A program made the position numbers and the translations under genes. From assembly GCF_003268655.1 (NCBI RefSeq), contig NZ_CP029642.1:3348001-3412000 (forward strand): a stretch of DNA of 64,000 nucleotides. The letters run 5' to 3'. The notes beneath the pieces are model-generated. The model saw nothing but the letters and a program-made list of their open reading frames with translations, made no database searches and was not told the DNA's origin. This DNA is from Arthrobacter dokdonellae. GTDB lineage: Bacteria > Actinomycetota > Actinomycetes > Actinomycetales > Micrococcaceae. This document shows, one piece after another, positions 10,025 to 54,858 of this stretch. Numbering within the stretch: the first letter of the stretch is position 1; the number at the start of each line of letters is the position of its first letter.

Positions 10025-11965
10025 CTACTCGCGCCGGGCCGGGTCGGTGAGCCACCGGACAGGCCGGGACGGGTCGGGCTCGTAGCGGCACATCCTCCCG
10101 GTGCTGATCCCGTCGCGCAGCAGGCGGGCCACGTCCGGATCCGCGGCGGCAATCCTTTCCAAGGCGGCGGCGACAGCCTTGCGCACCGATGTCCGAGCCC
10201 GTTCAGACGCCGGGCCCAAGGCGCGCGGCCGCCCCAGCAGCCCGCGGGCCGCGGCCAGCTGGTGGATGAACTCCTGCCGTTCACTCCGGGCTGCGGCGGC
10301 GCGGTCCGGATCGTTCCAGTCCTCGGCCTCGCCGATCTCCGCATCCAGCTCCGCCAGGCGCCGCCGGTAGGCAGCAAGGGCCCGTGCGTCGAGAACGGGG
10401 CCGCCCGAGTCCTGGTCGGCCCGCAACGCCCTGTCAAACCCTGAAACAAGGTCAACGCTGGCAATGTCCTTCCCCGGGTTCCGCAGCAACAGCCGCAAGT
10501 ATGAGAATCCCACTCGCGCGGGAAAGACCTGTGGAGCCTCTTTCCGGCCGATCTGCCAGATCCCGGGCGCCCCGGGCGCAAACAGCAGTTCAGCCGGCGG
10601 CGCGCCCGCGAGGTGGACGGAAGGACCTGGCCTGTCCGCCGCGCCGCGGTCTCCCGCCCCGTCTCCGGCCGCCCTGCCGCCGGCCGCCGCACCTTCGCCG
10701 GCCGCCGGGGAGAGGCGCGCGGCCCACCAATCGGCCCCGAGGGCGGCATACGCGTTTTCGGCGACCGAGCGGTGGCGCTCCGCCCGGCCGCCGTCGCCCA
10801 GCAGGGTGTAGGCGCCGGCAAGATAGTGGTCCACCACGCCGTGGAAGCTGACAGCCGCGGCGTTGACCACCCCCCGCCCCGCAAAGGGTTCAAGGACGCC
10901 TGCCATGAGCGCCGCGGCGGCCCGGTCGCCGGTCCCCGTCGCAACCTCCGCCACCTGGGTTGCGGTCAGCAGCCAGTCGACGTCCCGGGGAATGCCGGCA
11001 AAGCCGTCGCCAATGATGCGCCGTGCCAGGACGGACGCATGTCCGGACTCCCCGGCGTCGAGCCACAGGACGGCGGCCTGGGCCAGGATGGAAGGCACGC
11101 CCTCGGCGGTCGCGTAGTCCTCATAGCTCGCGGCCTCGGCACGGAGCTCCGGGGCCCGGCCGCGCTGGCGGGCAATCTCGCCGCCGAGCGCATGCCCCAC
11201 GGCATACGTGTCCGCCTCGCCGGCGCGGGCGCCGGAGGCTGCGGCGGCAGCAGCCAACCGTTCGGCCTCGCCGGTCCGGCCGGCGAGGAGCGCGGCCATG
11301 GCCCTGCGGCACTGCGAGTAAAAGAGCGCCCGTTCCGCACCGGACTGCCGGGCCAGCAGTTCGAGGTCGCGCAGTCGGCGCTGAAGGGCCAGCCCGTCAA
11401 GCCGTTCGAGGGCACTCGTCAGGGCCCAGCACAGGGCGCGGAGGCGCAGGTCGACGTCGGCAGTATGGGCCGTGAGTTCTTCCAGCTCGGCACAAAGCGG
11501 TGTCCGGACCCCAAAGTCGTCCGGCCCCCAGTGCGCCAGCAGCCCTGCCTCCAGCGCCGCGGCGACGTCGTCGGCGTCGCCGGATGCGCGGGCCGTGTCC
11601 AACGCCTCCGCAGCGAAGGGCGCCGCCCGGGCGGCCTCCCCGGCGTACACCCAGAGCCGGGCCAGCGCAACGGCCAGGCGCCCGCGCTCAGGCGGCCCCG
11701 CAGCGGAGTAGGCCTGGTGGAGGAGGGCCGGGAGCGTGCCGGCCGGGGTCCCAAAGCGGTGGTGGTCCACCAGGGCCAGCGCGGCGGAGACCAGCACGCC
11801 GGTTTGGCCTGACTGCGCGGCCGCGCGGCACGCGGCGAGGTACAGCCCGTCGGCGTCGGACGATTTGGCCTGGCGGGCGGCGGCCGCGCGCTGGAGGAGT
11901 TCGACGGCGGATGGCCCGGAAGAGCCGGCCCCGGCGGATGAATCGGACCCCATGGCAGTGGCCAT
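10025..11965 (-). CDS. TPR-like protein with C-terminal regulator-type domain, eCIS-adjacent
   Basis: About 646 residues from the ATG at 11965; a GTG at 12001 is an alternative and no start has a clear ribosome binding site. Most of the protein is Ala-rich helical hairpins spaced like tetratricopeptide repeats (for example ALEAGLLAHWGP, RAMAALLAGRTGEAERLA). The C-terminal 200 residues (IWQIGRK, FSYLRLLLRNPGKDIASVDL, AYRRRLAELDAEIGEAE, ERARTSVRKAVAAALERI) form a module found at the end of actinobacterial ATPase/cyclase-type signalling proteins. No nucleotide-binding motif or kinase is present. It follows the eCIS operon in the same direction, so a regulatory or assembly role is possible but inferred. 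Confidence 0.55.
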   Translation of the reverse strand: MATAMGSDSSAGAGSSGPSAVELLQRAAAARQAKSSDADGLYLAACRAAAQSGQTGVLVSAALALVDHHRFGTPAGTLPALLHQAYSAAGPPERGRLAVALARLWVYAGEAARAAPFAAEALDTARASGDADDVAAALEAGLLAHWGPDDFGVRTPLCAELEELTAHTADVDLRLRALCWALTSALERLDGLALQRRLRDLELLARQSGAERALFYSQCRRAMAALLAGRTGEAERLAAAAAASGARAGEADTYAVGHALGGEIARQRGRAPELRAEAASYEDYATAEGVPSILAQAAVLWLDAGESGHASVLARRIIGDGFAGIPRDVDWLLTATQVAEVATGTGDRAAAALMAGVLEPFAGRGVVNAAAVSFHGVVDHYLAGAYTLLGDGGRAERHRSVAENAYAALGADWWAARLSPAAGEGAAAGGRAAGDGAGDRGAADRPGPSVHLAGAPPAELLFAPGAPGIWQIGRKEAPQVFPARVGFSYLRLLLRNPGKDIASVDLVSGFDRALRADQDSGGPVLDARALAAYRRRLAELDAEIGEAEDWNDPDRAAAARSERQEFIHQLAAARGLLGRPRALGPASERARTSVRKAVAAALERIAAADPDVARLLRDGISTGRMCRYEPDPSRPVRWLTDPARRE

Positions 11966-12014
11966 GCATAGATCATAGACATCCGGCGGGGCCGTTCCCA
12001 CCTTTCCGGCGGCG

Positions 12015-12452
12015 TCAGGGCCTGATCAATGTTTCCGCGGCCGCGTGTTGCGCCCTGAGCGCCTGGTCCCAGTCCCCGGTGCAGTAGACGGACAGTTCGG
12101 CCACCTCTCCGCCGGCGACGTCCGCCCGGGCCATCTCGCGTGCGGTCCACTGCTGCCCGTCGGCGGCCCAGGCTTCCTCAAATTCGATGACGAAGCCGCC
12201 GGGGGTGGCGTCGGCGCGCCAGCGGGGCACGGTGCCGGGACCGGGGTGGCCCGCCCGGCGCAGCTGCTCGGCGGCCCGCCTTCCGCGGACCTGCTTGCGC
12301 CACAGGGGAAGGGTGAAGTCGACAAAGACGTCCTCGGCAAACAGGCCAGCGGGCGCCGTTCCCGTCTCGAGAAACTGGACGAACCGGCGCGCCAGGGCCT
12401 CCGTGGCGGGGTCCATCCGGGCGGAAAGGGTTTGAGCTGTGGTTTCTGGCAT
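12015..12452 (-). CDS. SnoaL/NTF2-fold protein at the end of the eCIS operon
   Basis: 145 residues from the ATG at 12452, which follows a near-perfect ribosome binding site (AAGGAGGTGG); the open frame extends upstream but has no such site. The alternation of helix and strand (RFVQFLETG, FAEDVFVDFTLPLWRKQVRG, GFVIEFEEAW, VAELSVYCTGDWDQAL) fits the alpha+beta barrel of SnoaL-like proteins. The fold includes enzymes and binding proteins; no catalytic residues can be assigned. It is separated from the DUF6519 gene by 102 bases, so it may have its own promoter. Confidence 0.6.
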   Translation of the reverse strand: MPETTAQTLSARMDPATEALARRFVQFLETGTAPAGLFAEDVFVDFTLPLWRKQVRGRRAAEQLRRAGHPGPGTVPRWRADATPGGFVIEFEEAWAADGQQWTAREMARADVAGGEVAELSVYCTGDWDQALRAQHAAAETLIRP

Positions 12453-12554
12453 TGCAGCCACCTCCTTGATTGGTGTTGATGCAAGGAAGGCGTGAGAACC
12501 GGCTTCACAGTGTGACGCCGGGCGGCACAGGGCCATGCCAGCGGGGCCGGCGGC

Positions 12555-13934
12555 TCACACGGCCAGCGGGGCAAAGAACTTCCGCAGCTCGGTGAACACC
12601 TGCCCCGGGGTGCCGGCCGGTCCGGGGCCGACGCCTGCCAGCGAGGCGTACGCGTGTTCCTCGCCCCTGGGCGGCAAGGGCTGCGGGTTGAGGGCTGCCG
12701 CACCGTCGTCGCGGGGCCACTCGACGTCGCCGGTGGCGGTCCGGGCCGGGATGAGCCAATAGTCGCCCGTCCGGTACGTGGCCGGGGATCCGCCGTCGGC
12801 GGCGGGGAAACAGACCTGCACCCCGTCCTCAAGATCCTGCCACTGCGGCTGCCCCACCGGGGATTCGACGACGGCGACGGCCCCGCCGGCGGCCGCGTCG
12901 CCGTCGTGGTCCCAGCGGCGCAGGTACGGGTGCAGCCGCGGGTCCAGGCCCGATTCGGGGTCCGCCTGCCCTTCCAGCACCACGCTGAACTCGTCGCGGT
13001 CGATCGAATGGACGCGCAGCAGGGGCGCGGCGGCATGCCGGAGCGTGGAATTGTCGTCCACCAGTTCCACCCAGCCGCCCACCACCAGGCCCAGGTCCGT
13101 GTCCCGCCCCAGCGTGGCCAGTGTGACAGTGGTGGTGTTGGACGCGGCGTCCACGGCGGGTGATCCGGCCAGCGGCAGGGTCACGGAGCCGTTGTCCCGC
13201 GACCACTTGAACGTGGCGCCCCGCCCCGGTCCGCCGGCAGGTCCCGGGGCGTGGATTTCCACCCGGTACAGCTGGTTTTCCAGGCCCCGGTAGCGGGCCG
13301 CCGGATCCACCGAACAGGGGTCGTTGTTCGTGGCGGGCGGCTCAGCCTGCGCGGCCAGCAACGGCACGGCACGCACAAACTGCCCCGCCACACCCGTTCC
13401 GTCGTCGGGCAAACTGATGGGCAGCACCCGCACCTGCCAGGTGAGCTGTGCCCGGGTGGCGGTGTCCGGTCCGCCGAGGGCCGGTTCCAGGAGTCCCGGG
13501 TTCTCCACGACGTTGATGTGCCGCTCCCAGACGTCGAGGTAGATGGTGTAGTTGGGCAGCTCGGCCAGGTTGTCCGTGGTGCTCGCGGCGTCGAACGGGT
13601 AGCCCGGTTGCTCGCTGTACAGCAGGGCTGCGGGATTTTGGCACATGGCCCCGTTGACGTAATAGCGCCCGGCGCCGATCAAAAAGTCCCCCGGCACCAG
13701 CTTCTTGCCCAGCGCCTTCGCCGCGGCGGGGTCCGTGATGACGGCAAAACCGGCATTGTCCCGCGGCCCGCCTTCGGGGCCGATCAGGTCCCGGGCAAGG
13801 AGCCGCCGGGCGTGCACGGCGATGGCGGCCTGCTCGTTGAAGTCGGCGTCGAGGTGGACACGTCCCTGTTGCATGAGGACGCGGGTATAGTGGTTCCGCG
13901 GATCAAAGGTGTCCCGGCTGAAGTCGCCCTTCAT
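12555..13934 (-). CDS. DUF6519-domain protein of the contractile injection system
   Basis: 459 residues. The N-terminus MKGDFSRDTFDPRNHYTRVLMQQGRV followed by LDADFNEQ is the hallmark of the DUF6519 proteins found in phage-tail-like injection clusters. The rest is beta-rich (YTIYLDVWERHIN, YRVEIHAPGPAG, GATFKWSRDNGSV), which suits a fibre or baseplate-attached surface protein. It sits ten bases after the gpI-like gene, at the distal end of the operon where fibres are usually encoded. Its molecular role is unproven. Confidence 0.75.
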   Translation of the reverse strand: MKGDFSRDTFDPRNHYTRVLMQQGRVHLDADFNEQAAIAVHARRLLARDLIGPEGGPRDNAGFAVITDPAAAKALGKKLVPGDFLIGAGRYYVNGAMCQNPAALLYSEQPGYPFDAASTTDNLAELPNYTIYLDVWERHINVVENPGLLEPALGGPDTATRAQLTWQVRVLPISLPDDGTGVAGQFVRAVPLLAAQAEPPATNNDPCSVDPAARYRGLENQLYRVEIHAPGPAGGPGRGATFKWSRDNGSVTLPLAGSPAVDAASNTTTVTLATLGRDTDLGLVVGGWVELVDDNSTLRHAAAPLLRVHSIDRDEFSVVLEGQADPESGLDPRLHPYLRRWDHDGDAAAGGAVAVVESPVGQPQWQDLEDGVQVCFPAADGGSPATYRTGDYWLIPARTATGDVEWPRDDGAAALNPQPLPPRGEEHAYASLAGVGPGPAGTPGQVFTELRKFFAPLAV

Positions 13935-13943
13935 GATGTGCCC

Positions 13944-19200: not shown

Positions 19201-19363
19201 TCATGGCGGCCAGGAAGCTTGGCCGGGACCCCACCCGGTAGGACAATGTTGCGAGGCCCGGCGGGTTGGACGTAGCTGCCGGGGTGGCCGCGGATCCGCC
19301 GCACCCGCAACCACCGCCGCATGAGCCGCACGGACCGCACCCGCCTGCTGCCGGATTGTTCAC
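16202..19363 (-). CDS. Putative baseplate assembly protein (large, Afp11/12-like)
   Basis: 1053 residues. Typical sequence of the large eCIS putative baseplate assembly proteins: RDPGDASMAMLDAWATAGDV, LTFYQERLCNEGYLRSATE, LVGWRPRPGVAATAYLAY, and a late baseplate-J-like region (VGDYADFAATFAGIGKA, VDYVDVDVFRT). It should form part of the baseplate wedge ring around the spike. The first 24 residues are Gly/Cys-rich with cysteines at 9, 12, 15, 19 and 21, unusual for a baseplate protein. It overlaps the next gene by four bases (ATGA). Confidence 0.82.
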   Translation of the reverse strand: MNNPAAGGCGPCGSCGGGCGCGGSAATPAATSNPPGLATLSYRVGSRPSFLAAMTARLSSGAHTPLAALRTRDPGDASMAMLDAWATAGDVLTFYQERLCNEGYLRSATEQRSVRELAALVGWRPRPGVAATAYLAYTVDPHTSEVLIPAGSRANSIPGPDETMQAFESSDDLPARASWNELRPRMARAQTAASVIADGLYLAGTATKLAPNDPLVLDLGTGTVQAVRVRTVTEDPVAQLTRVELADWQGGSFGASAQRQALAASRAAMDAAAGTATAQRVSLVLDRLERLVGTVPASELARQAGANAMPALGRELAAARDRGYARLIPALEAAHAILASIAAPGPEPAGAPAGRTPARPADRAGGREENPVDILVDGLLRPASVPPANAQKLERSYSATFAGAGEVYPQLLAGLYANLGPTLFPALAAERISSSTTLSVSALRQRCPLFGHNAPVPGSFKGGVYVPPTSDWALAPDEHANVAYLDGARELLQAGQYVVMQHGADTDPGDFTAELTVIKTVRTGSRLAYGLAAPATTMVLSDAWWKPRGRDFPDGPDTMGTLRASTAYAGQEALELAREPITEDVGGRELELDGLYDGLTAGRWVIVTGVRTDVAAAGVQGAELLMLAAVVHTGQRGDGGILAGEERHTFLTFARPLAYTYQRDTVSVFGNVAHATHGETRQEVLGAGNAALALQQFTLKQSPLTYLAAPTPAGVASTLVVRVNGVQWPEAPSLGYLSGSRRGFFTTAAPTGSTTITFGNPPHGQRLPTGTDNVRAGYRSGIGAPGNVRPGQISQLATRPLGVMAVTNPLRTSGGADAEPSELTRSNAPRSVTALDRLVSVGDYADFAATFAGIGKASSALLYAGGSALLQVTIAGLGDVPIDAGSDLFRNLRSALILYGDPQLRVRLVAREALALVLSANVKVAADYDWTLVEPAVRAALLRTYGFDAMALGRDVPTSAVTAAMAAVPGVDYVDVDVFRTLRAAELTAGVADLTGGPTPNSPLQAGDDPGTQPPRRIRVAPDRVESGAALPAQLAWFQAAVPDSLILNEVRP

Positions 19364-22349: not shown

Positions 22350-22357
22350 GGCGTCCC

Positions 22358-22681: not shown

Positions 22682-22705
22682 GGTGTTCCCCTTTCGTTCC
22701 GGCCC

Positions 22706-24649: not shown

Positions 24650-24651
24650 GG

Positions 24652-25302
24652 CTAAATCCCCCTGATTCCGAGCGTGTCCAGCGTGGCTTGCGGGCTGCCG
24701 GCGGCGAACTGTTCCTTTTGCGCCAGGTAGCTCATGAACAGGCCGCCCGCGCGGTGGTCGAAGCCGGTGTCGTCCACCGTGAGCACGCGCAGGCCCAGGC
24801 TGACCTTGGCCTGGATGGGGTTGAGGTTGACGTCGAACGCCTCCTCGGTGATGGAGAAGTCGGTGATGCGCACGGGAATTACCCGGTTCCTGCTCCACAC
24901 GAAGAGGGGCAGGGGTGCCTCCATGGGCAGGATCTCCAGCCGGCCGGCCTGCTGCAGGGCGTTGTTGGCGAGCAGTTGCGTGCTGCTGGGGTACACCATG
25001 GTTTCCAGGGCGGCCAGCTGCGGGAAGATTCCCGAGGCGGTGGCCGGGCCGGTGCCGAGCTCCAGCTGGTCGACGGCGTCGATGTCCGCCTCCAGTTTGA
25101 TCGTCTCGGTGGGCGGGCCCTTGATGCGCAGCACCTCGGAGCGGTCCGGCGTGTCCGTGCCGGCGCCGTGCACGGCCAGGGTGCGCGTCAGGGTGGCCGG
25201 GTTGTACTGCAGCGCGATGATGCGCACGACGGCGGCCGTGACCGGGTCGATCAGCACGATCCCGCCGCGGACCAGCCGGGGGGCGATGGGCGGGGAGCTC
25301 AT
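24652..25302 (-). CDS. CIS_tube N-terminal domain protein (Afp7-like)
   Basis: 216 residues. IIALQYNPATLTRTL followed by PTETIKLEADIDAVDQLE, FPQLAALETMVYPSS, VPVRITDFSITEEAFDVNLN and LGLRVLTVDDT is the signature of the contractile injection system tube/baseplate adaptor N-terminal domain. In Afp and PVC the same domain with a C-terminal LysM forms the adaptor between inner tube and hub. Here the LysM is encoded by the next gene. Four-base overlap with the DUF4157 gene upstream. Confidence 0.85.
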   Translation of the reverse strand: MSSPPIAPRLVRGGIVLIDPVTAAVVRIIALQYNPATLTRTLAVHGAGTDTPDRSEVLRIKGPPTETIKLEADIDAVDQLELGTGPATASGIFPQLAALETMVYPSSTQLLANNALQQAGRLEILPMEAPLPLFVWSRNRVIPVRITDFSITEEAFDVNLNPIQAKVSLGLRVLTVDDTGFDHRAGGLFMSYLAQKEQFAAGSPQATLDTLGIRGI

Positions 25303-26636
25303 GGGGTACCCCTGCCTTTCTCCTGGATGGCTGCTTCCACGGCCTTTTCGACAGCCTTCAATCCGTCCGCGTCATGCAGGCCAAGGCTCTCGGCCGCGGC
25401 GCGCGCAGCGGCCGAGGAACCCTTGATGACGGCGTCACGGGCCTTCTCCTTGAGCCAGTCCCGCTTGTCCTTGGACAGCCCCCCGGCCACGGCGTCGATG
25501 ACGGGGTCGATCAACTTTTCCGCCACCGTGTCCACGATTGACGTCGGCCCGCTGCCCTTGACCGGCGGGGGCAGTGGCTTGTAAAAGTCCGGCGGCAGGT
25601 TCACGCCGTTGTCCGGCACGGGCTGGGGATGGTAGGTGAGGTCGATGGGTTTGGGGGCCGGGGGGCCAAGGCCGGCACCACCCGGTCCGGGCGGCGGGAC
25701 AAGTTCCGGCACCATCCGTCCCAGCGGCGATTTGCGCGGGTGGAAGCGGATTTCCACCCGCCGGTTGCGTGCGTTGGGGACATTGTCCTTGGTTGCCACG
25801 GCCTGGGCGGGCCCCTCGCCCTGGCTGTCCGTGGCCATGATGGCGGCGGGGACGCCCATTCCGGACAGGGCGCCTGCCACCGCATCCGCCCTGTCCTGGC
25901 CGAGCCGGGCGTTGCTGGCTTCCGTGCCCACGGTGTCGGCGTGGCCGGTGATGGTGACGATGGACAGCGTGTAGCGCTGCAGGAGGACGGTGATGGTGGC
26001 GGCCAGCACTTTCAGCTGCCCCAGCTGGTCCGGCGTGGGTTCGGCCTGGCCGGTCGGGAAATTGTCCAGGGTCTGCGAGCCAATGGCCGACGCCAGAAAC
26101 GGGGAGGCGTCTTCAATCAGGGCCGTCGCCGGGTCGCCCTGCACGGAGTTGCCGGCACCCGCCAGCGGCTGGCGGCGGACCGCCCCGGGAAGGTGCCGGC
26201 CGCCGGGGGGAATGCGCAGCATGCCGCTGCCCGGGTAGGCGGCCGCGTTCCGGTCGGCTGCCCGCTCCGACGCATCCCCTGGCGTGGAAACCCCCTGGCC
26301 TGCCGGTTGCAGGGTGTGCGTGAGTTCATGGGCCAGCAGCATCCTGCCTTCCATGGTGCCCGGCTGAAACCGGCCCCCGCCAAAGAAGATGTCGCTGCCA
26401 ACCGTCAGTGCCGCCGCGTTCATCGACTGCGCCAGGGCCGCCGCCCCCGAATCCGCATGCACCCGGACCCGGGTGAAATCCCGCCCGAAACGCGCTTCAA
26501 AGCCCCGCCGCACCCCGTCCGCCAGGGGAGCGCCGCCGGACCGGGCGGCCTCCCCCGTGGCGCGGGCCGGGCGCGCGACAGACATGGCTGCCGCCTTGGC
26601 CGCTTCCGCCCGTGCGCCGTCAAATTCATCGGCCAT
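25299..26636 (-). CDS. DUF4157 (eCIS core) - OmpA-like fusion protein, candidate cargo
   Basis: 445 residues. Residues about 35-125 are a DUF4157 domain: LADGVRRGFEARFGRDFTRV, RVHADSGAAALAQSMNAAAL, and an intact metallopeptidase-type HELTH at 103-107. Residues about 200-305 are OmpA-like (VTITGHADTVGTEASN, LGQDRADAVAGAL, NARNRRVEIRFHP), a fold that usually binds peptidoglycan. The C-terminal 100 residues are helical with a KDKRDWLKEKARDAV stretch. DUF4157 is strongly linked to eCIS loci and their cargo; its place inside the structural operon suggests a particle component or cargo with cell-wall affinity. The function is inferred. Confidence 0.82.
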   Translation of the reverse strand: MADEFDGARAEAAKAAAMSVARPARATGEAARSGGAPLADGVRRGFEARFGRDFTRVRVHADSGAAALAQSMNAAALTVGSDIFFGGGRFQPGTMEGRMLLAHELTHTLQPAGQGVSTPGDASERAADRNAAAYPGSGMLRIPPGGRHLPGAVRRQPLAGAGNSVQGDPATALIEDASPFLASAIGSQTLDNFPTGQAEPTPDQLGQLKVLAATITVLLQRYTLSIVTITGHADTVGTEASNARLGQDRADAVAGALSGMGVPAAIMATDSQGEGPAQAVATKDNVPNARNRRVEIRFHPRKSPLGRMVPELVPPPGPGGAGLGPPAPKPIDLTYHPQPVPDNGVNLPPDFYKPLPPPVKGSGPTSIVDTVAEKLIDPVIDAVAGGLSKDKRDWLKEKARDAVIKGSSAAARAAAESLGLHDADGLKAVEKAVEAAIQEKGRGTP

Positions 26637-26925
26637 GGTTCAGCCCTCCCATCACGGCTCCGGCGATGGAACGGCCCATGGCCCGCGGGTCGGAACCGCC
26701 GGGCAAGGCCACCGGCGCCGGGCGAAGGGCCGGCACCGCCGCACCGGCCAGCATCCAATCCGCCGCCCGGGCGCCGCCATCGCCGGCCTCCGCGGTGTTC
26801 CCGGCATCACCGCCCAGCCGGCGCGCCAGCTCCGTCTCGAGGGCGGTGGAAACCAGGGCTGCAGAGCGGGTATCCACATCCAGCCCCTCCAGGACCAGCC
26901 TGTCGATTCTCACGTCAATGTCCAT
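26626..26925 (-). CDS. Small conserved eCIS-operon protein
   Basis: 99 residues, family not recognised. It starts MDIDVRIDRLVLEGLDVDTR, continues with a helical AALVSTALETELARRL and ends with a Gly/Ala-rich MGRSIAGAVMGGLNHGR. It overlaps both the ATPase gene and the DUF4157 gene (11 bases each), so it is expressed with them. Homologues of similar size beginning with an I-x-x-LxLxG pattern are common beside eCIS ATPases, perhaps as adaptor or chaperone; that role is a guess. Confidence 0.6.
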   Translation of the reverse strand: MDIDVRIDRLVLEGLDVDTRSAALVSTALETELARRLGGDAGNTAEAGDGGARAADWMLAGAAVPALRPAPVALPGGSDPRAMGRSIAGAVMGGLNHGR

Positions 26926-28969: not shown

Positions 28970-30246
28970 GTGACCCTCACCTGCTGGGCCGGGTCGAAGG
29001 CCGGCACGGGACCGGTGAAGTCGACGGGGATGCTGTCCACGCCGTCCACGCGCAGCCTGACCGGGTGGAGCCCGGCAGGAACGGCCGGGACGGCAAACGT
29101 CACAGTGGTGGGCGTGCCGGCGTAGCCCGGGTCCCCGGGCGACGGGTTGCTCACGGTGGCCCCGGCCGTGGCGCCGCCGCACAGCACCACGACGTCCTGG
29201 CCGGCGCCAATCCGGGGCGAGCAGGTCAGTGTGACCGTGCCGCCCACGGACACGGCGGCCGGGTTGTGCGGGCTGACGGTCACGGCCGGGGCCAGGGCAA
29301 AGGCCACCTTGTTGCTGACCACTGCCGGGAGGCCGGGCGTACGGGTCACGGCGGACACGGTATAGAAGCCGGGCACCCATTGGCCCCAGGCGGCGGGGTC
29401 CGCGCCAAGGTCCGGCGGCACCACCACCAGCTGGCCGGGCGCGGGGCCGGGCGCCGGGGCCAGCTCCACGGGCGGCAGCGGCGGGCCGGGCGGCAGGGGG
29501 CGCCACAGGCTCGTGAAGCGCAGCACCGTGTCCAGCACCGCCAGCCCGCTTCCGGCCACCACCACGGGCTGCCCCTGCGCGGCGGCCGCCTGCGAGCGCG
29601 GCGGCACCAGCGCGCTGAGCGTGGCAGCCGCACCGAGGACCGTTTGTGCGCCTTCGTCGCGGCTGCCGCGGGCCAGGACGGGGAGTGCGGCGCTCCCCGG
29701 CGTGTGGCTGTCGATCAGCACGACCGTCACCTCGTAGGCGGCGGAGACGTGCAGGCTGGTTTGGAATGCCGTCCACAGCTTGGACAACTCGTCGGTGGAG
29801 AGCGGCAGCGGCGTGATGCGCAGGCGTTCGGGCTGGCCGGCCACGTCGCTGTTGGCCAGCGCCGCCGTCAGTTCGTCGGGGCTGAGCACGGGGTGGTCGT
29901 GCAGCACGCTCATGGCCGCGGCCAGGGCCCGGTGGCTCACCGCGTCCTGGTCCGTGTCGTCGCGGCCGTAGGCCGTGACCAGGTAGTGCAGGTTCAGCGA
30001 CAGCGGCGGGGTGGCCGACTCCCCCGGCCGGGTCCGCGGCAGGTCCTGGTTGCGCCAGCCGGCGTTGACGGCCGTGCCATAGAGGAACACGTTCAGGGAG
30101 GCCCCGGTGACGGTCTTGCGGGCCATGTCCGGCGTGCGGGTGGTGACGCTGAGGTCGGAAAGGGCCGGATCCAGCACCGGGACGGTGTTCAGCAGGAGGT
30201 TCCGCAGGGCTGCGGTCACGACGGCGACTGCCCAGGTGCTGCTCAT
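28966..30246 (-). CDS. DUF4255 protein, tail terminator/cap (Afp16-like)
   Basis: 426 residues. The N-terminal half is a classic DUF4255 domain: VAVVTAALRNLL, VTTRTPDMARKTVTGASLNV, NVFLYGTAVNAGWRN, PPLSLNLHYLVTAYG, followed by LAAAMSVLHDHPVLS. It caps the tube and sheath ends as Afp16/PVC16. The C-terminal 170 residues hold Ig-like strands (VSVGGTVTLTCSPRIGAGQD, TTVTFAVPAVPAGLHPVRLR), an extension common in actinobacterial homologues. Overlaps of four bases with both neighbours. Confidence 0.9.
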   Translation of the reverse strand: MSSTWAVAVVTAALRNLLLNTVPVLDPALSDLSVTTRTPDMARKTVTGASLNVFLYGTAVNAGWRNQDLPRTRPGESATPPLSLNLHYLVTAYGRDDTDQDAVSHRALAAAMSVLHDHPVLSPDELTAALANSDVAGQPERLRITPLPLSTDELSKLWTAFQTSLHVSAAYEVTVVLIDSHTPGSAALPVLARGSRDEGAQTVLGAAATLSALVPPRSQAAAAQGQPVVVAGSGLAVLDTVLRFTSLWRPLPPGPPLPPVELAPAPGPAPGQLVVVPPDLGADPAAWGQWVPGFYTVSAVTRTPGLPAVVSNKVAFALAPAVTVSPHNPAAVSVGGTVTLTCSPRIGAGQDVVVLCGGATAGATVSNPSPGDPGYAGTPTTVTFAVPAVPAGLHPVRLRVDGVDSIPVDFTGPVPAFDPAQQVRVT

Positions 30247-31085
30247 CGCCGGCCCTTGAGGTACTCATCCAGGCTCATGAGCCCGGATGCCGGCGGCCCG
30301 GCAGCGGGCGGTTGCGCCGGCGCCGCCGCGGCCTTGACCTCGATCCGGCCGATGTGGACGTGGATGTGCTGTTCGGGGGCCCGTGCCGGTTCGCGGCGCA
30401 GCAGCTGCTCCAGCCGCGGCCGGACCGTGCCGGCTTCCGGGAATTGGGACGGCGCAGGCGTCTCGGTGCGGCGCTGTGCCGGCACCCCGGCGGGCCGCCA
30501 TACCGTTGCCTCCCCGCGGACGACGCCGGCCGCCCGCATCAAGTGCCCGGGCTCGCCGCCGGTGTTGTGGCGGTCGTCCGGGCCAGCCGCGCCCGGCCGG
30601 ACGCCTGGCTGGGGCACGGCCGGCACGGGGCTGCCGGGGCGGTTCGCCGCGGCCGCGCGCGGCGGCGCGGCGTCCACCGCCAGGTGCGGGCGTTCCCGGA
30701 CGGCGGGCGGCGTCACAGTGCCAGCCCGGGGAGTACGGACTCCGCCCGGCTGCGGCGCGGCGGCTGCGGGCGGCGCGGGCCTCGGTCCCGGCCGCGGCAC
30801 GGCAGGACGGTCCGGTGCCGGAGCGCTGGCGGCAGCGGCGGTACACGTGCTGCCGGAGGGGGCGTCGCCTGTCCACGGGCCCGCGTCCTCGCCCGTTGCT
30901 GCTGCCACGTTTCCGCTGCCCGGCCACAGCGGGGCGCCCGGTTCCTCGAAGCGGGAGGCCAGGCGCGGCACCACGGCGCCCTCCGGCGTCGTTCTTCCAG
31001 CTATAAAGGTGCCGGCGCCCAAGGTTCCGGCACCTGGGGCAGCGGGGGGAAGCTCGCGGCGCAACAAGCCGGCCAGGTAGTTCAC
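30243..31085 (-). CDS. Pro/Ala/Arg-rich eCIS-operon protein of unknown function
   Basis: 280 residues if it starts at the GTG 31083-31085, whose GTGA overlaps the stop of the gp51-like gene; this coupling is why the start was chosen. The N-terminus VNYLAGLLRREL and the C-terminus RLEQLLRREPARAPEQ, HIHVHIGRIEVKA, LMSLDEYLKGRR are ordered; the roughly 190 residues between are Pro/Ala/Arg-rich and likely disordered. Short proteins ending in an I.V.IGRIEV-type strand plus SLDEYL.. recur in eCIS operons at this position. It might be a scaffold or sheath-cap chaperone; not established. Confidence 0.6.
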   Translation of the reverse strand: MNYLAGLLRRELPPAAPGAGTLGAGTFIAGRTTPEGAVVPRLASRFEEPGAPLWPGSGNVAAATGEDAGPWTGDAPSGSTCTAAAASAPAPDRPAVPRPGPRPAPPAAAAPQPGGVRTPRAGTVTPPAVRERPHLAVDAAPPRAAAANRPGSPVPAVPQPGVRPGAAGPDDRHNTGGEPGHLMRAAGVVRGEATVWRPAGVPAQRRTETPAPSQFPEAGTVRPRLEQLLRREPARAPEQHIHVHIGRIEVKAAAAPAQPPAAGPPASGLMSLDEYLKGRR

Positions 31086-31807
31086 GGGGCCACCAGCTCC
31101 AGGTAGGCCTGGCGGCGGCGTGGCGGCAGGGCCAGGACGTCGCGCTCGGACCAGCCGTAGGCGTGCGCCAGGGTGTGGATGTCCAGCAGCATGCGCCGGG
31201 CCCAGTGGTGCAGCTCCGCCCACAGGTAGGAGGCAATGTGGAGCGGCGCCAGCCAGTGCCGGGCGCACCCGGGGCACTCGAGCGCGAGCTCCGTGGTGCC
31301 GGCAGGATCCGCCCGGCCCAGCTCCTCCCCGAGGGCGGCCACCAGGCCGGCGGGCAGGGATGCCGGCTCCACGGCGACCCCGCCGGCCGAGGCGCCGGCG
31401 ATGCAGCGGTGCACCAGGGCTGACTGTGCGTCGGGCTGTGCGTCGGCGGAGTCCAGGCCGAGCAGGTCGTTGCTGGTGACGGCGCGCAGGACAACCTCGA
31501 AGCCGTCCCGCCGGACCGTGACCGGCTGCGCGGCGCCCGCGGGCCCGAGGGAGCCGGCCGGGAAGGACAGCTCCACCTCCAGGCCGCAGCCCGGGCACTG
31601 CGCAAGAGCCTCCAGCTCCGGCCCGAACAGTTCCGCCCTGAACGCCAGCAGCGCCGCGTCGCGCCGGCCCAGCGGCCAGCCGGCCAGCTCCCCTGCCGAT
31701 TCCCGCGGGCAGGCTGCGGCCAGCAAGGTCAGCGCACGCCGCACCGGCTCCTGGTCAAGGCCCCGTTCCCACACCTCCAGCAGTTGGGCTGCCCCCGGCC
31801 CCGGCAC
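31082..31807 (-). CDS. T4 gp51-like baseplate hub assembly protein with CxxC pairs
   Basis: 241 residues. The start QLLEVWERGLDQEPVRRALT, then PLGRRDAALLAFRAELFGPE and the C-terminal helix ELHHWARRMLLDIHTLAHAY, GWSERDVLALPPRRRQAYLE follow the pattern of eCIS-encoded proteins related to phage T4 gp51/gp26-type hub assembly factors. Two CPGC motifs (about residues 90 and 179) could bind zinc. It probably acts in assembly rather than in the finished particle. It lies six bases after the tube gene. Confidence 0.68.
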   Translation of the reverse strand: MPGPGAAQLLEVWERGLDQEPVRRALTLLAAACPRESAGELAGWPLGRRDAALLAFRAELFGPELEALAQCPGCGLEVELSFPAGSLGPAGAAQPVTVRRDGFEVVLRAVTSNDLLGLDSADAQPDAQSALVHRCIAGASAGGVAVEPASLPAGLVAALGEELGRADPAGTTELALECPGCARHWLAPLHIASYLWAELHHWARRMLLDIHTLAHAYGWSERDVLALPPRRRQAYLELVAP

Positions 31808-31813
31808 CGCCCA

Positions 31814-32341
31814 TCACCCGTTCGCCGAACTCAGGGTCGGTTCCGTGGGTTCGGTGACGGAGGGGTCCCGTTCCCAGCCTTCGTTTTCCAGCTTGATGTG
31901 CGCAATGGCGACGGCGTTGGCGTTGGCGTCCAAGTCCGGCAGCGCCTGGTACTCGGAAACCCAGCAGCGGTAGATGTTGTAGGCGAGCACCTTCTGGCCG
32001 GCCTCGTTGTAGACCTCCAGGATGATGTCCTTGCGGAAGTCCTTGAGCGAGACTTCGGCACCGAGCCCCGAGCCGAAGTCCCACACCTTAGCCGCCCACG
32101 CCTCAAAGTCGGTGTCATGCGTGACGCCGCGTTCAATCGTGACGGCGTCAAATTCGGTGCGGCCCGGGGACTTCCTGGACGACGACGGGTCCCCGCCTTC
32201 GCGGTGCTTGACCACCTCCGTGGTGCGCTTGAGGCCGCCAACCTTGCTGACGCCGGCCACGTACCTCCCGTCCCACTTAATGCGGAACTTGAAGTTCTTG
32301 TAGGGGTCAAAACGCTGGGCATTGACGCTGAACTGGGCCAT
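31814..32341 (-). CDS. Inner tube protein (phage tail protein, gp19/Afp1-like)
   Basis: 175 residues. MAQFSVNAQRFDPYKNFKFR, VAGVSKVGGLKRTTEVVKHR, DAVTIERGVTHDTDFEAWA, KDIILEVYNEAGQKVLAYNI and RCWVSEYQALPDLDANANAV are the standard landmarks of the tail tube (gp19) family. Hexamers stack into the tube that is driven into the target. Only one tube gene is seen, whereas Afp has three. Nine bases separate it from the sheath gene. Confidence 0.93.
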   Translation of the reverse strand: MAQFSVNAQRFDPYKNFKFRIKWDGRYVAGVSKVGGLKRTTEVVKHREGGDPSSSRKSPGRTEFDAVTIERGVTHDTDFEAWAAKVWDFGSGLGAEVSLKDFRKDIILEVYNEAGQKVLAYNIYRCWVSEYQALPDLDANANAVAIAHIKLENEGWERDPSVTEPTEPTLSSANG

Positions 32342-32350
32342 GGTCCCCTC

Positions 32351-34240
32351 CTAAACCTGCACCGCGCCGGCAATTTGCGCCAGCGTGATGACCACAAATT
32401 CGGCCGGCTTGAGCGGGGCGAATCCGACCAGGATGTTGACCACGCCCAGGTCGATGTCGTTTTGCGTGGTGGTCTCGCCATCACACTTGACGAAGTAGGC
32501 GTCCTTCGGCGTGGAGCCCTGGAACGCGCCCTGGCGGAACAGGTTGTGCATGAAGGCGCCGACGTTGAGCCGGATCTGCGCCCAGAGCGGTTCGTCGTTG
32601 GGCTCGAACACCACCCACTGCGTGCCCCGGTACAGGCTCTCCTCGATGAACAGTGCCGTCCGGCGCACCGGGAGGTACTTCCATTGCGAGGCCAGCTGGT
32701 CGTTTCCTTCCAGGGTCCGGGCGCCCCAGGCCACTGTGCCGGCGGCCGGAAAGCTGCGCAGGCAGTTCACGCCCAGCGGGTTCAGATTGCCGTTTTCGGC
32801 GTCGTTCATGGTGACGGTCAGGGCCTGCGCGCCATTCAACGTGGCGTCCAGCCCGGCCGGTGCCTTCCACACGCCCCGGCTGCTGTCGGTGCGTGCCATG
32901 ATGCCGGCCATGGCCCCACAGGGGACCAGTTCTCCGGGCTGGCTGCCGCGCAACGGGTCCGGGGACAGCATCCGGGGGAAGTACAGGGCCGCGTAGTTGC
33001 TGGTGGTTCCGATCACGCCGGAGCGGAACTGCGTGACGGCGGTGGCCGCGTCGCCCCAAGCGTGCGGGGAGTCGAGCAGCAGGACGGCACGGCGCGACTG
33101 GCAGTAGGCCACGGCGTCCGGAACCAGCCCGGCGTAGTCGATGTCGCCGTCGTTCGGTCCGTTCAGGTAGGGCGGGATGCACAGCAGGTTGAACAGGTCG
33201 GCGTTGGCCAGGGCGTACAGGCCCGTCTTGCCGTCCTGCTTGCCGGGTCCGTTGAAGTCGGTGGTGGCCAGGGCGCCGCCGTCACTGGCCAGTCCGGCAG
33301 GGGCCACCACCGCGTTGGTGGCCGGCAGGGCCGGGATGGCGGGGGTGGGCGGGTTGGTGGTGTTGTCGGCCGGCACTTCGGCCACGGCGTTGTCGCCCCA
33401 CTTGTCGAACTGGTGCCGGGAGGTGTCCGGGTCCGGGCTCTTGTCCGGGCGGGAGGCCGGAAGCCCGGCGGCCGTGACCAGCCCGGAGCCGCCGGCAAGC
33501 ACCGCGTCCACCCGCCGCACGTCGCCGGGAAGCACCGAGACGTTCAGGAACGTCTCGACCTTGCCCGTGGTGCCGTCGCGGACCAGGAGGTTGAAAACGT
33601 CCGGCTGTTGCACGCCGTTGACGGTGACGTATTCCACCCGGGCCCGCAGGCTGTTGCCCCAGGCGCCGGGATACTTGGCGTTGAGCGTGAGGGTGGACAT
33701 GGCGAGCTGCGCCGCGTCAAGCGGGGTGGCGGTCGCCGCTGCCGCCGTGGCGGCGTCCCCCACCGTGGCGGCTGTTGCGCCGGATGCGGTGGAGGCGGCC
33801 TGCGCGGCGGCGGCCACGACGTCCGCGGCAGCCTTCTCCGGTCCGCTGGAGTACGTGGCGGCCTTGGCGGCCGCCGCCGCGGCGGCGGCCTGGGCGCTGC
33901 TGCCCGTCGCCGCCGCCGCCGTGGCAGTTGCGGCCGCGACGGCATTGGCCCGGGCCGTGGCGTCTGCGTAGTTGTTGTGGAAAAGCCGCACCACGATGGC
34001 CCGGCTGCCGCCGTTGCGGTAAAAGTCGCGGACCGCGTAGCCCAGGGAACTGCCCAGCCACAGCCCGCCAAAGGTGCGCTCAAAATCGGAAAAGCTGTTG
34101 ATGGTGACCGGTGCATCCACGGGTCCGCGGGCCGCCCTGCCAATGAAGGCGGTGATGGAAGTGGCCACACCCGTGATGGTGTGGACCCCGCTGGACACTT
34201 CGGTGACATAGACGCCCGGATAGCTTGTTGTGACTGGCAT
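32351..34240 (-). CDS. Contractile tail sheath protein
   Basis: 629 residues from the ATG at 34240, which has a GGTGGGGGA ribosome binding site. It starts with the sheath signature YPGVYVTEVSSG, then TSITAFIGRAARGP, SFSDFERTFGG, YAVRDFYRNGGSRAIVVRL, and ends with the C-terminal domain: NCLRSFPAAGTVAWGARTL, YLPVRRTALFIEESLYRGTQ, FEPNDEPLWAQIRLNV. Contraction of this sheath drives the tube. Residues about 92-180 are an Ala-rich (AAA...) insertion between the conserved N-terminal arm and the next domain. First gene of the main operon. Confidence 0.93.
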   Translation of the reverse strand: MPVTTSYPGVYVTEVSSGVHTITGVATSITAFIGRAARGPVDAPVTINSFSDFERTFGGLWLGSSLGYAVRDFYRNGGSRAIVVRLFHNNYADATARANAVAAATATAAAATGSSAQAAAAAAAAKAATYSSGPEKAAADVVAAAAQAASTASGATAATVGDAATAAAATATPLDAAQLAMSTLTLNAKYPGAWGNSLRARVEYVTVNGVQQPDVFNLLVRDGTTGKVETFLNVSVLPGDVRRVDAVLAGGSGLVTAAGLPASRPDKSPDPDTSRHQFDKWGDNAVAEVPADNTTNPPTPAIPALPATNAVVAPAGLASDGGALATTDFNGPGKQDGKTGLYALANADLFNLLCIPPYLNGPNDGDIDYAGLVPDAVAYCQSRRAVLLLDSPHAWGDAATAVTQFRSGVIGTTSNYAALYFPRMLSPDPLRGSQPGELVPCGAMAGIMARTDSSRGVWKAPAGLDATLNGAQALTVTMNDAENGNLNPLGVNCLRSFPAAGTVAWGARTLEGNDQLASQWKYLPVRRTALFIEESLYRGTQWVVFEPNDEPLWAQIRLNVGAFMHNLFRQGAFQGSTPKDAYFVKCDGETTTQNDIDLGVVNILVGFAPLKPAEFVVITLAQIAGAVQV

Positions 34241-34500
34241 TGGATCCCCCACCAGAACTGGAGCTCTTAACTTGTCGGTGCTAAACGGGGGTCCTGATGC
34301 CGGGCCCGCCGTCGCGTTGAAAGACTCATGGCGACGCGATGCAGAATAATGCCTAGAATGCGCCGCAGCGGCCCATCGTGTCAACAAGAATCTTGGCCGG
34401 CGCGGATTGCGCAAATGCGTCCATGGCAGGCAAGCGCCCCGCGCCGGAGTCCGTCCGCGGCGCGGGGAATCCCACGGTCACGCTCCCGGCGCCGCGAACG
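34241..34500 (-). promoter_or_regulatory. Upstream region of the main eCIS operon
   Basis: This 260-base gap must hold the promoter of the sheath-to-DUF6519 operon, read on the minus strand. A strong ribosome binding site (GGTGGGGGATCC) precedes the sheath ATG. No canonical -35/-10 pair is clear. The distal part holds a hairpin that ends the upstream unit. Confidence 0.45.
34437..34467 (-). terminator. Hairpin after the upstream eCIS cargo unit
   Basis: Perfect 10-bp stem CCCCGCGCCG / CGGCGCGGGG with an 11-base loop, 34 bases past the stop of the preceding minus-strand gene. It would separate the two-gene cargo unit from the structural operon. Confidence 0.55.
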
Positions 34501-34986
34501 CTACGTGACGTCAAACCACAACGTGTTCGACTCCCAGGAACCGGGCCGCCACTGCACAGAGTGCCGTCCGGGAGTGCCAAAAGTGTATTCCGTGATGTCG
34601 AAGTTGAAGTCGAGGCCGGGCCCCGGGGCCACCCGTCCGTCGTAGGACGGCGGAATGAGGGGATGGTCGTCCGCCGGGCCCTGGGGCGCGACCAGTTGCC
34701 CGTCGACGTATTCGCCGGTGACAGGTTTGGGGCCCATGGGATACACGGGGGCGTCCGCTGCCACGGACTCGCAGACATGGATGATCCTGACTGTCTGGCC
34801 GACCGTGCATGCCGGACCTTCGGCCAACAGGGTCAGCCGGTAGCCGCCGGCCGCGTGGCCCTTGTCCGCCGCTTGTGCATACCCTGCCGCCACGGCCTGG
34901 TCCGCCGGGGGCGCATCGACGATCCGCCCTCCCTCCCGGACGAACAGGTGGGGGCGCCCTGCTGGATTTTCCGGCGGATTTTCCAC
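34501..34986 (-). CDS. eCIS-associated hypothetical protein, partner of the DFSRIPV protein
   Basis: 161 residues, family not recognised. It has no signal peptide. Beta-rich stretches GGYRLTLLAEGPACTVGQTV, RIIHVCESVAAD, FNFDITEYTFGTPGRHSVQW, ESNTLWFDVT suggest a sandwich fold. The gene begins four bases after the upstream gene ends, so the two are surely co-expressed, then a hairpin follows. It could be a chaperone, neutralising partner or second cargo; the sequence alone does not tell. Confidence 0.6.
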   Translation of the reverse strand: MENPPENPAGRPHLFVREGGRIVDAPPADQAVAAGYAQAADKGHAAGGYRLTLLAEGPACTVGQTVRIIHVCESVAADAPVYPMGPKPVTGEYVDGQLVAPQGPADDHPLIPPSYDGRVAPGPGLDFNFDITEYTFGTPGRHSVQWRPGSWESNTLWFDVT

Positions 34987-34990
34987 TGCG

Positions 34991-35986
34991 CTACGGCCTG
35001 ACCACTACGTCTTCACCCTGGGACGGTGACGGCCCTGCGGCCGTGGTAAACCCGTTGACCGTGCAGGCGTGTGGGTCCTTTTGGAGCCGGAACACGATGC
35101 GCGTTCCGGTGACGGTGATGATGCGCCGGATGAGATAGCCCGAATTGGGGATGGCCGTCGGGGTGGTGACGCCGCTGCCGGGCGCTGTGAACGTGTCCAA
35201 CTGTTCGCGCTCCATGCTGCCGTTGCCGCCAAGGTTGTCGGCGCAGTCGATAATCCTGGCCTTGCCTTCCGTGTGTTGGTCATCCGGGATCGGGAACCCC
35301 GCCATGTACCCGCTGTTGTTGCTGCGCCCAGACGGAACAGTCGCATAGGAACCGGTGTGGTTCAAGGAGGAGCTGACCTGTTCACTGTCCTGAACCGCTG
35401 CCATGTCGGCGTCATTGCCGGTTGACGACGTCAAGGTGATGGCGATGGCCATCCCCGCAACGTCGGGCCGGTCGATCGGGGTGTGCGCGGGCCCGTTGCG
35501 GACGGCCACGGGCACGGGGCCGGACGGACCGGCCGGGCCGCCGCCAAGGGCCGCCCCGATTCCCGCACCCAACGCCGCGCCGCCCAATCCGCCGATGACG
35601 GCCCCCGCCCCGCCGCCCAGCAGAAAACCTGCAATGCCGCCCACAACGGCACCTATGCCGCCGCCGATGAGGGCGGCCGTTGACCTGTCGTCGGTGGATT
35701 CCGCGTCCGTGACCGCCAGGCCGCGGCCGTCGCCGGGCCCGGACTCCGGAAGAAGCGCCATGGTGTGGCCGGCAGCCAGGCGTTGGGCTGCGGCCCCCCT
35801 GTCGGCCGCCATAGGCCGCGTGTACACCGGAATCCTGGAAAAGTCGTGCCCCCATCCGGGGTCCGCCGTGCCCGGACGGCCGTGATTCGCGGTCTGGTGT
35901 GCCGCAGGTCTGCCTGCCGGAAGTACCCGCAACGCACGGCCGGGGGCAGGCACGCGTTGAAACTGCCGCAAACTCTCCGATCCCAT
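34991..35986 (-). CDS. Candidate eCIS cargo: DFSRIPV leader plus glycine zipper
   Basis: 331 residues from the ATG at 35986. Residues 46-57 read GHDFSRIPVYTR, the short leader usually found near the start of DUF4157 eCIS proteins, yet no HExxH domain follows. Residues about 104-153 are a long glycine zipper (LIGGGIGAVVGGIAGFLLGG, AGAVIGGLGGAALGAGIGAA) able to form membrane helices. The last 170 residues are a polar beta-rich domain (GMAIAITLTSSTGND, GYLIRRIITVTGTRIVFRLQ). It heads a two-gene unit just upstream of the sheath gene in the same direction. A membrane-active toxin delivered by the particle is the simplest reading, but it is inference. Confidence 0.62.
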   Translation of the reverse strand: MGSESLRQFQRVPAPGRALRVLPAGRPAAHQTANHGRPGTADPGWGHDFSRIPVYTRPMAADRGAAAQRLAAGHTMALLPESGPGDGRGLAVTDAESTDDRSTAALIGGGIGAVVGGIAGFLLGGGAGAVIGGLGGAALGAGIGAALGGGPAGPSGPVPVAVRNGPAHTPIDRPDVAGMAIAITLTSSTGNDADMAAVQDSEQVSSSLNHTGSYATVPSGRSNNSGYMAGFPIPDDQHTEGKARIIDCADNLGGNGSMEREQLDTFTAPGSGVTTPTAIPNSGYLIRRIITVTGTRIVFRLQKDPHACTVNGFTTAAGPSPSQGEDVVVRP

Positions 35987-41143: not shown

Positions 41144-41330
41144 GAGCCACCTCATTGCGGATAGATAAGTGATTTCGTCTACATCGTACCAAAACACCAA
41201 TCTAAGTGCGCCAATGATGCAGATCAAAAACACGCTAGGAAAGCTGAGACCTGCCTTCCAAGGCCGTCCCCCAATTCAGGACGGGTGCAGCGGCGGAGGC
41301 TCGATGCCACTGACCGCCGCCCGCCCACTT

Positions 41331-54746: not shown

Positions 54747-54858
54747 GGTCGCCGCCCGGAGAGGTAGCCCAAAGGCCAAAGGATTCCTGCATACGTAGCG
54801 TCCTGGGGTATGGGTCGGGTATCCGGACACCCGGCACCCTAACCCACCCGAAAGGGAC

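Follow-up and report, generated by a model that had tools for sequence, protein, structure and literature searches.

The closest described relatives of the locus considered here are extracellular contractile injection systems (eCISs) of Actinobacteriota that carry a DUF6519 protein, named eBAP5 and described as a fibre anchor; this previously missed subtype was reported in January 2026, and the parts of that report drawn on here describe the DUF6519 branch as correlated with Actinobacteriota (PMC12923769, Nat Commun 2026). Excerpts of other papers add that in the SLP system of Streptomyces the payload Sle1 and its DUF4157 partner Sle2 lie just upstream of the sheath gene, in reverse direction (PMC13277306), that polymorphic DUF4157 cargo has a conserved N-terminal DUF4157 region and a variable C-terminal part (PMC8213781, PMC11297309), and that Pvc15 selects payloads (PMC11495950). 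The window analyzed, 64,000 nucleotides of the 4.53-Mb genome of Arthrobacter dokdonellae (positions 3348001-3412000 of contig 1), holds at 12555-34240 on the minus strand what is, judged by its sequence, a complete eCIS of the DUF6519/eBAP5 type.

The eBAP5 (DUF6519)/Tail_P2_I eCIS is the closest known kind. As in the systems described in the excerpts of PMC12923769, the DUF6519 anchor gene is downstream of Tail_P2_I-type and baseplate genes, the host is actinobacterial, and DUF4157, Pvc16_N, and CIS_tube-type genes are present; unlike in those systems, the fibre gene of the window is a stub, and the same gene set is also found on plasmids of Rhizobiaceae, Novosphingobium, and Nostoc. The subtype is described as largely lacking an Afp12 homologue; the window has two wedge proteins, either of which might correspond to Afp12. 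The excerpts make no mention of the cargo slot, the small protein, or the exchange of a loading cassette discussed below, and literature on DUF6519 together with the word "contractile" yielded nothing beyond that paper. The word "Arthrobacter" is absent from the main texts of PMC12923769, PMC8213781, and PMC12210884 (supplements and eCIS databases were outside the scope). The Arthrobacter eCIS belongs to the branch described in 2026 and is real, complete, and constrained; the present analysis adds the gene order across genus and class loci and plasmids, a small-protein family, a relative with a diverged cassette, and the cargo family of the gene termed g1. The Streptomyces IId systems (CIS-Sc, SLP) resemble it in being actinobacterial, in having a related sheath, and in the probable cargo genes beside the sheath gene, but they have two tube proteins (Cis1a/1b) and a VgrG-like spike, whereas the window has one tube gene, a separate hub and spike, and DUF6519. 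Afp and PVC (lineage Ia) reportedly share the DUF4255 cap, AAA+ ATPase, gp25, spike, and PAAR protein; the window is said to differ from them in having one tube and one sheath, a split Afp7, and a hub apart from the spike (all as in the original prediction, with which the annotation agrees), no recognized tape measure, cargo inside the operon instead of at its end, and a Tail_P2_I/DUF6519 baseplate.

Eighteen minus-strand genes, from the sheath gene (34240) through the DUF6519 gene (12555), are tightly consecutive (Table 1). The original prediction, made from the letters of this stretch, was of a complete eCIS in an Arthrobacter-like actinobacterium, and both parts of it are supported: 15 of the 16 machine and loading proteins compared are 92-100% identical to those of G019 (taken as Arthrobacter wenxiniae AETb3-4; L039), the remaining one, the proline/alanine-rich protein, being 76% identical. 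Searches with profile hidden Markov models recognize the sheath, tube, DUF4255 cap, AAA+ ATPase, DUF4157 protein, gpV spike, gp25, Baseplate_J protein, and DUF6519 protein. Overlaps of 4-11 bp, predicted for the whole run, are found at 11 of the 17 junctions between the sheath and DUF6519 genes, the other six being gaps of 2-24 bp. The eCIS sheath gene is the sole sheath gene in the whole genome.

Some of the predicted gene names needed correction, as did the ends of the locus, which had been placed at 10025 and 35986. The genes at 10025-12452 (minus strand), one SnoaL-like (by eye) and one encoding a 658-aa regulator-like protein with no family match, form an unrelated module that was rejected as part of the eCIS because the pair is absent from most eCIS relatives and present in genomes without this ATPase. 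Among six genus loci the pair occurs in the window and G019 only, being absent from the locus stretches of four of the five eCIS-bearing relatives (the regulator is absent from the genomes G006, G007, G011, and G012), and it is present in G013 and G092, both of which lack this eCIS ATPase. The DUF6519 end of the locus is at 12555, and at its other end 260 bp separate the sheath gene from a probable cargo pair, g1 and g2. These two genes, the genes for the 99-aa, zinc-ribbon, and proline/alanine-rich proteins, and the OmpA domain of the DUF4157 protein go beyond the original prediction.

Table 1. Genes of the eCIS locus and its probable cargo pair, in order from the sheath side, with the evidence for each assignment.
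Feature	Position	Strand	Evidence
g1, 331 aa, probable cargo	34991..35986	-	homologues; P0152 fusion to eCIS_core; AF2 model
g2, 161 aa, g1 partner (immunity protein, chaperone, or second cargo)	34501..34986	-	pairing with g1 elsewhere
Contractile sheath, 629 aa	32351..34240	-	PF17482 7e-11, PF04984 4e-9; PDB 8bky E 2e-81
Inner tube, 175 aa	31814..32341	-	PF06841 E 2e-43; PDB 7b5h, 7adz
T4 baseplate-hub-assembly-like zinc-ribbon protein, 241 aa	31082..31807	-	PF12322 weak, E 0.0045, under cut-off; zinc ribbon by eye
Proline/alanine-rich protein, 280 aa, fast-evolving	30243..31085	-	no Pfam match; 32-76% identity to five genus loci
DUF4255/Pvc16 tail-terminator cap, 426 aa	28966..30246	-	PF14065 (Pvc16_N) E 1.5e-48
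Afp15/Pvc15-type AAA+ ATPase, 684 aa	26915..28969	-	PF00004 E 2e-29; winged-helix PF22977
Small protein, 99 aa, proposed cargo adaptor	26626..26925	-	no Pfam/NCBIfam match; own-profile matches in 19/21 loci
DUF4157 (HExxH) + OmpA-family protein, 445 aa, cargo or cargo carrier	25299..26636	-	PF13699 (eCIS_core) 3e-28, PF00691 1e-11; HELTH motif
CIS_tube (Afp7 N-terminal part), tube initiator, 216 aa	24652..25302	-	through relatives only, under cut-off
LysM/tail protein X, 106 aa	24329..24649	-	orthologue annotation; no Pfam match
Spike hub (gp27/VgrG hub-like), 375 aa	23209..24336	-	NF033848 partial, E 3e-4, far below cut-off; position
gpV-type spike, 168 aa	22706..23212	-	PF04717 (Phage_base_V) E 1e-20
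PAAR-like tip, 107 aa	22358..22681	-	DUF4280 E 0.0027, below cut-off; position conserved across loci
gp25 baseplate wedge, 120 aa	21987..22349	-	PF04965 E 9e-15
Baseplate wedge protein 1, 876 aa	19360..21990	-	phrog_219 E 2e-15
Baseplate wedge protein 2, 1053 aa	16202..19363	-	TIGR02243 E 8e-65; PF04865 (Baseplate_J) 2e-6
Tail_P2_I (gpI)-type fibre adaptor, 753 aa	13944..16205	-	G377/G236 orthologues above PF09684 cut-off; window protein without match
DUF6519 (eBAP5) fibre anchor, 459 aa, no C-terminal extension	12555..13934	-	PF20129 E 6e-104

The full best explanation of the locus, and one held with high confidence, is a headless contractile tail of the DUF6519/eBAP5 type whose payload is loaded by the ATPase and an adaptor. 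In such a particle the sheath would polymerize around a tube made of a single protein and closed by the DUF4255 cap; the CIS_tube, LysM, hub, gpV spike, and PAAR-like proteins would build the tip; gp25 and the two wedge proteins would hold the baseplate, and the Tail_P2_I protein would bear a DUF6519 anchor of minimal size. The AAA+ ATPase, together with the 99-aa adaptor, would recognize the N-terminal DUF4157 region of a payload, or a short leader, and feed the payload into the particle, the payloads here most likely being the DUF4157-OmpA protein of the slot and g1 with its partner g2. Upon contraction the spike would pierce an envelope and the payload would be released. What the sequences themselves show is the gene content and order, the intact state of the genes, the lineage, the cargo slot with its variability, and the domain connections of g1; that a functional particle is assembled, as originally predicted, that the ATPase and small protein do the loading, and how the payloads and the firing work are inferred.

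Several observations weigh against this explanation. The CIS_tube, LysM, hub, and gpI proteins of the window have no significant Pfam match, no tape-measure gene is recognized in the locus, the DUF6519 protein has no receptor-binding extension, and no lysis gene is recognized in the operon, so that particle release is not accounted for. For two of the predicted identities, CIS_tube and gpI-like, support comes through orthologues: three of six CIS_tube family members match Pfam CIS_tube (best 4e-4), with orthologues in four of six genomes matching at 4e-4 to 2e-3, all below the curated cut-off, and at the gpI-like gene the G377 and G236 orthologues exceed the Tail_P2_I cut-off, with no match at that gene in the other four of six genomes. 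The LysM name is carried by the annotation of a Streptomyces europaeiscabiei orthologue as "tail protein X", and the predicted tip and hub keep their names on sub-threshold matches (Table 1). The zinc-ribbon gene adjoins the tube gene in all 16 loci. Streptomyces IId systems have a membrane adaptor, CisA; in the present locus a hydrophobicity scan rises above 1.9 only for g1, hub, and CIS_tube. A 616-aa protein encoded 9 kb away (44834-46684, minus strand) has a weak endolysin-type PHROG match (E 3e-5) and no Pfam match at 0.001.

The locus is not a prophage, given its housekeeping flanks, a hub unmatched in phage records, and the fact that no compared gene is broken. Below it lie a GNAT acetyltransferase-like gene (by eye), thiL, a DAK2/FakA-like gene, recG, and an rsmD-like frame (by eye), and above it lies the urocanase gene. 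A search of 50,697 phage records yields no match to the hub. Among the flanking proteins scanned with Pfam and PHROGs, a set that does not take in every frame, families of phage heads or DNA packaging (capsid, terminase, portal) are lacking, which agrees with the predicted lack of capsid and terminase genes. A prophage tail module or a payload-free bactericidal tailocin could be imagined, since all parts are of phage-tail descent and the tube has distant matches (32-34% identity) to tail tubes in six Streptomyces phage records; with these flanks and with an AAA+ ATPase, DUF4255, and DUF4157 present, it is highly improbable. No stop interrupts any gene aligned with G019, and the ratios of non-synonymous to synonymous substitution (dN/dS) against G019 are 0.00 for the tube, 0.10 for the sheath, and 0.06-0.41 elsewhere in the operon apart from the proline/alanine-rich gene (0.71), a comparison that excludes the DUF4157-OmpA gene missing in G019. 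Against G006 the ratios are 0.02-0.39, except for the proline/alanine-rich (0.51) and 99-aa (0.68) genes.

This ATPase is found with a high score in six of 23 genus genomes (the window and five of the other 22). The eCIS lies between thiL/GNAT and urocanase in the window, G019, and G006, and elsewhere in G007 (Arthrobacter sp. HY1533; L040), G012, and G011 (Specibacter cremeus; L041). Where thiL and urocanase share a contig (19 of 23 genomes), the interval between them, 9024-36258 in the window, spans 71 bp to 27 kb; among the 16 genomes with no eCIS there, nine have 71-3,335 bp and seven have 7.5-25.6 kb. This interval is likely a repeated insertion point. Among 393 other genomes of the class, 13 have a hub match: nine give strong scores with the hub profile (10 loci, one genome having two), and four (G195, G373, G429, and G471; E 2.5e-6 to 2.7e-4) gave weak ones and were set aside. 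Loci of G100, G108, and G139 contain a relative of the ATPase but nothing that matches this hub; G102 has such a relative too, on a contig that ends at 14.6 kb, so that a hub gene may lie beyond it. These four loci entered only the comparison of locus stretches.

The eCIS gene order is kept in the five genus and 10 class loci, the latter all reading sheath, tube, zinc-ribbon protein, cap, ATPase, cargo, CIS_tube, LysM, hub, spike, PAAR, gp25, wedge, wedge, gpI, and DUF6519, with the exception that in G402 the sheath, tube, and zinc-ribbon genes are relocated behind the cargo gene. Hub matches also occur in 10 of 72,556 plasmid records. In the five of these whose gene order was examined, the Rhizobium (L085), Novosphingobium (L086), and Ciceribacter (L087) plasmids have the full eCIS order, the Nostoc plasmid (L084) has a partial one, its stretch lacking matches for sheath, tube, zinc-ribbon protein, and PAAR, and the Streptomyces europaeiscabiei record has a rearranged one; the DUF6519 branch keeps the same gene order on plasmids of other phyla. 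The eCIS relatives L084-L087, complete or near-complete, lie on large plasmids, and their genes are unannotated in the collection.

A variable cargo slot lies between the ATPase and CIS_tube genes. It holds the 99-aa gene and the DUF4157-OmpA gene in the window, and the 99-aa gene alone in G019. In G007 and G012 a DUF4157-OmpA protein (66-71% identity) is followed by a second, 635-aa DUF4157 protein (HExxH by eye), after which G007 has an additional 206-aa partner gene; G006 has a second-type DUF4157 protein of 655 aa and a 214-aa partner but no OmpA protein, and G011 has two related proteins (short leader, C-terminal glycine zipper) and a 161-aa gene. Nine of the 10 class loci have a single large protein of 1,164-2,524 aa, with a DUF4157 match in seven of the nine. 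When six of these large proteins were compared in five pairs, similarity was 67-91% over the first 200 residues and 5-26% over the last two blocks, which suggests a cargo architecture with a conserved loading end and a variable working end. The cargo of the window departs from the described polymorphic DUF4157 cargo in that its DUF4157 protein carries an OmpA domain and g1 keeps a short leader only. The second DUF4157 protein of G007, G012, and, in similar form, G006 is missing from the window, and the G019 slot is empty of cargo; these absences could be the mark of a decaying eCIS that has lost its main toxin and kept the machine alone, an unlikely reading in view of machine genes that are intact and constrained and of g1 and g2, which may be the current payload.

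The 99-aa protein belongs to a family of about 80-110 aa whose profile, built from 38 relatives, finds a match in 19 of 21 loci (15 of 16 genome and four of five plasmid loci), each with an E of 3.3e-5 or lower. Ten of the 19 matching loci were themselves rows of the profile; G402, G236, G377, and L084-L087 were outside it yet matched. There is no match in L088 or in G200b, where a candidate is seen by eye only. The gene directly follows the ATPase gene in 18 of the 19 loci and lies just before CIS_tube in G402. A database search gave 765 matches at E 0.01 (7,992 candidates scored), and among the 120 matches listed most of the names are those of Streptomyces proteins named "hypothetical protein", with a few named "DUF4424". 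An AlphaFold2 (AF2) model, of low confidence, has two main helices and a mean predicted local distance difference test (pLDDT) score of 65. A DUF5908-type protein, which is presumably what Pvc6 is, was considered and rejected: PF19265 has no match at that position in six genomes at E 10. Position, size, and conservation across phyla together suggest that the small protein is a cargo adaptor.

The g1 protein has an N-terminal "HDFSRIPV" leader resembling that of DUF4157 proteins, a glycine-zipper hairpin (residues 101-146), and a C-terminal domain of about 175 aa. All 51 homologues found at E 0.01 align over most or all of this domain, and ahead of it 31 aligned relatives vary, with "LQRTAGN.AV"-type starts, DFSRIPV-type leaders, and glycine zippers; in P0160 a glycine zipper lies behind a g1-type domain, and in P0152 the domain is joined to a complete eCIS_core. 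Since its relatives share the domain behind eCIS-type leaders, including a complete eCIS_core, g1 is very probably an eCIS payload, and its family would add a cargo family to the eCIS repertoire. In the AF2 model residues 1-112 score below 50 and are followed by two helices and strands, and almost the whole of 156-331 has a pLDDT above 90; the C-terminal domain is predicted to be beta-rich, and its model has no significant match among solved folds. An effector of the Sle1 type, which is coiled-coil and tape-measure-like, was rejected for g1, whose model has no N-terminal coiled coil. g1 is 92% identical in G019 and was not found in the other four genus loci. Eight database proteins, including itself, represent g2, and the pairing with g1 recurs in "Bacillus sp. 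SRB_336" under adjoining locus tags (B5P43_17870/17875).

One relative suggests that loading genes can part from the machine. Between the window and G006 the machine proteins are 78-99% identical (proline/alanine-rich 45%), the ATPases 63%, and the small proteins 41%, whereas the ATPase and small protein of G007 are closer to those of the window (68 and 60%) even though its machine is farther from it than that of G006, except for gp25 (87 vs. 85%) and the proline/alanine-rich protein (48 vs. 45%). The ATPases of the window and G006 are equally distant from that of G011 (57 and 56% identity), so the G006 ATPase is not simply faster-evolving. The ratio of ATPase to machine distance is 3.8-3.9 for the window-G006 and G019-G006 pairs and at most 1.9 in the other 118 of 120 pairs (median 1.09). 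Synonymous divergence between the window and G006, in a comparison that leaves out the DUF4157 gene, is highest in the proline/alanine-rich (0.84), small-protein (0.83), and ATPase (0.73) genes and 0.19-0.53 in other operon genes, and nucleotide identity along the locus agrees with this pattern. A tree of six machine proteins groups G006 with the window and G019 (100/100), the opposing grouping being rejected (p 3e-42, and p 5e-4 with the cap alone), while the ATPase tree groups the window and G019 with G007 and G012 (92/94) against G006, although the approximately unbiased (AU) test does not reject the machine grouping for the ATPase (p 0.055).

The best reading of these comparisons is that ATPase, small protein, and cargo may have been exchanged together once, in the single case of G006, where divergence is unusually high from the ATPase gene across the cargo. 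The zinc-ribbon gene also has a raised ratio for window-G006 (2.27, third of 120 pairs; median 1.27), as mildly does wedge 1 (1.5, tenth of 120), so the divergence is strongest in, but not confined to, the ATPase and small protein. It counts against the loading part of the headless-tail explanation that Streptomyces-type cargo swaps its far end with no change of ATPase, the cargo far ends of G432 and G200a differing under ATPases that are 98% identical, so that any fit between ATPase and payload cannot extend over the full payload. That the ATPase might follow payload type, with one cargo in the window, G007, and G012 and another in G006, was rejected because G007 and G012 carry both the OmpA protein and the relative of the G006 type (for G012 on the basis of a listed open reading frame and tblastn). 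A wider proposal is offered tentatively, its chances being somewhat less than even: the ATPase, the protein of about 80-110 aa, and the DUF4157 cargo would form an exchangeable loading cassette that moves between machines by recombination; the small protein would be the dedicated adaptor of this eCIS branch across Actinomycetota, Cyanobacteriota, and Alphaproteobacteria; payload choice would be set by the ATPase and adaptor reading the payload N-terminus; and g1 would represent a cargo family with a fold not yet matched, its loading signal reduced to the short leader of DUF4157 proteins. Payload choice by eCISs is little known outside PVC, and the conserved small gene between ATPase and payload, together with the G006 case, in which these genes differ jointly on a machine that is otherwise similar, opens the way to direct tests of loading in a soil bacterium.

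The length of the DUF6519 protein varies: 459 aa in the window and in G019, G006, G007, and G012, 478 aa in G011, and 442 aa in G402, compared with 515-519 aa in G478, G361, G432, and G200a, 823 aa in G200b, 1143 aa in G236, and 931 aa in G377; in G485 and G386 it runs off the fetched stretch. With a stub of this kind, the particle might act outside the cell or inside it. A cytoplasmic system that is never released and that, under stress, kills or remodels the cell producing it, like CIS-Sc/SLP of Streptomyces, is a real though lesser possibility; it is compatible with eCIS identity and differs in the firing site, so its probability overlaps that of the headless-tail explanation. It would fit the fibre gene ending at 459-478 aa, with no receptor-binding part, in all six genus loci, the lack of a recognized lysis gene, and the best solved relatives of the sheath, 8bky/8bl4, which are presumably Streptomyces CIS structures. 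According to part of the 2026 report, fibre-less loci might act intracellularly (PMC12923769). CIS-Sc, however, has no fibre genes in the account excerpted from PMC12237407 and has two tube proteins, whereas here the DUF6519 anchor and Tail_P2_I-type genes are under selection (dN/dS 0.16-0.29).

Other features of the window lie beyond urocanase. Between urocanase and an acyl-CoA dehydrogenase gene, an AbiLi/AbiLii-like phage-defence pair at 39201-41233 (minus strand) and 38122-38553 (PADLOC 1e-82 and 5e-24; RloB and AAA_21 in Pfam) is accompanied by a PIN-domain gene; a search of the stretches retrieved for G006 and G019 did not reveal the pair. An ARAGORN call of tRNA-Gln at 41690-41787 (minus strand) lies within the gene for the acyl-CoA dehydrogenase, in the same orientation, and is probably false. 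From 54000 to 64000 the G+C content drops to 48-53%, and glycosyltransferase and UDP/GDP-sugar dehydrogenase genes mark what is probably a polysaccharide island.

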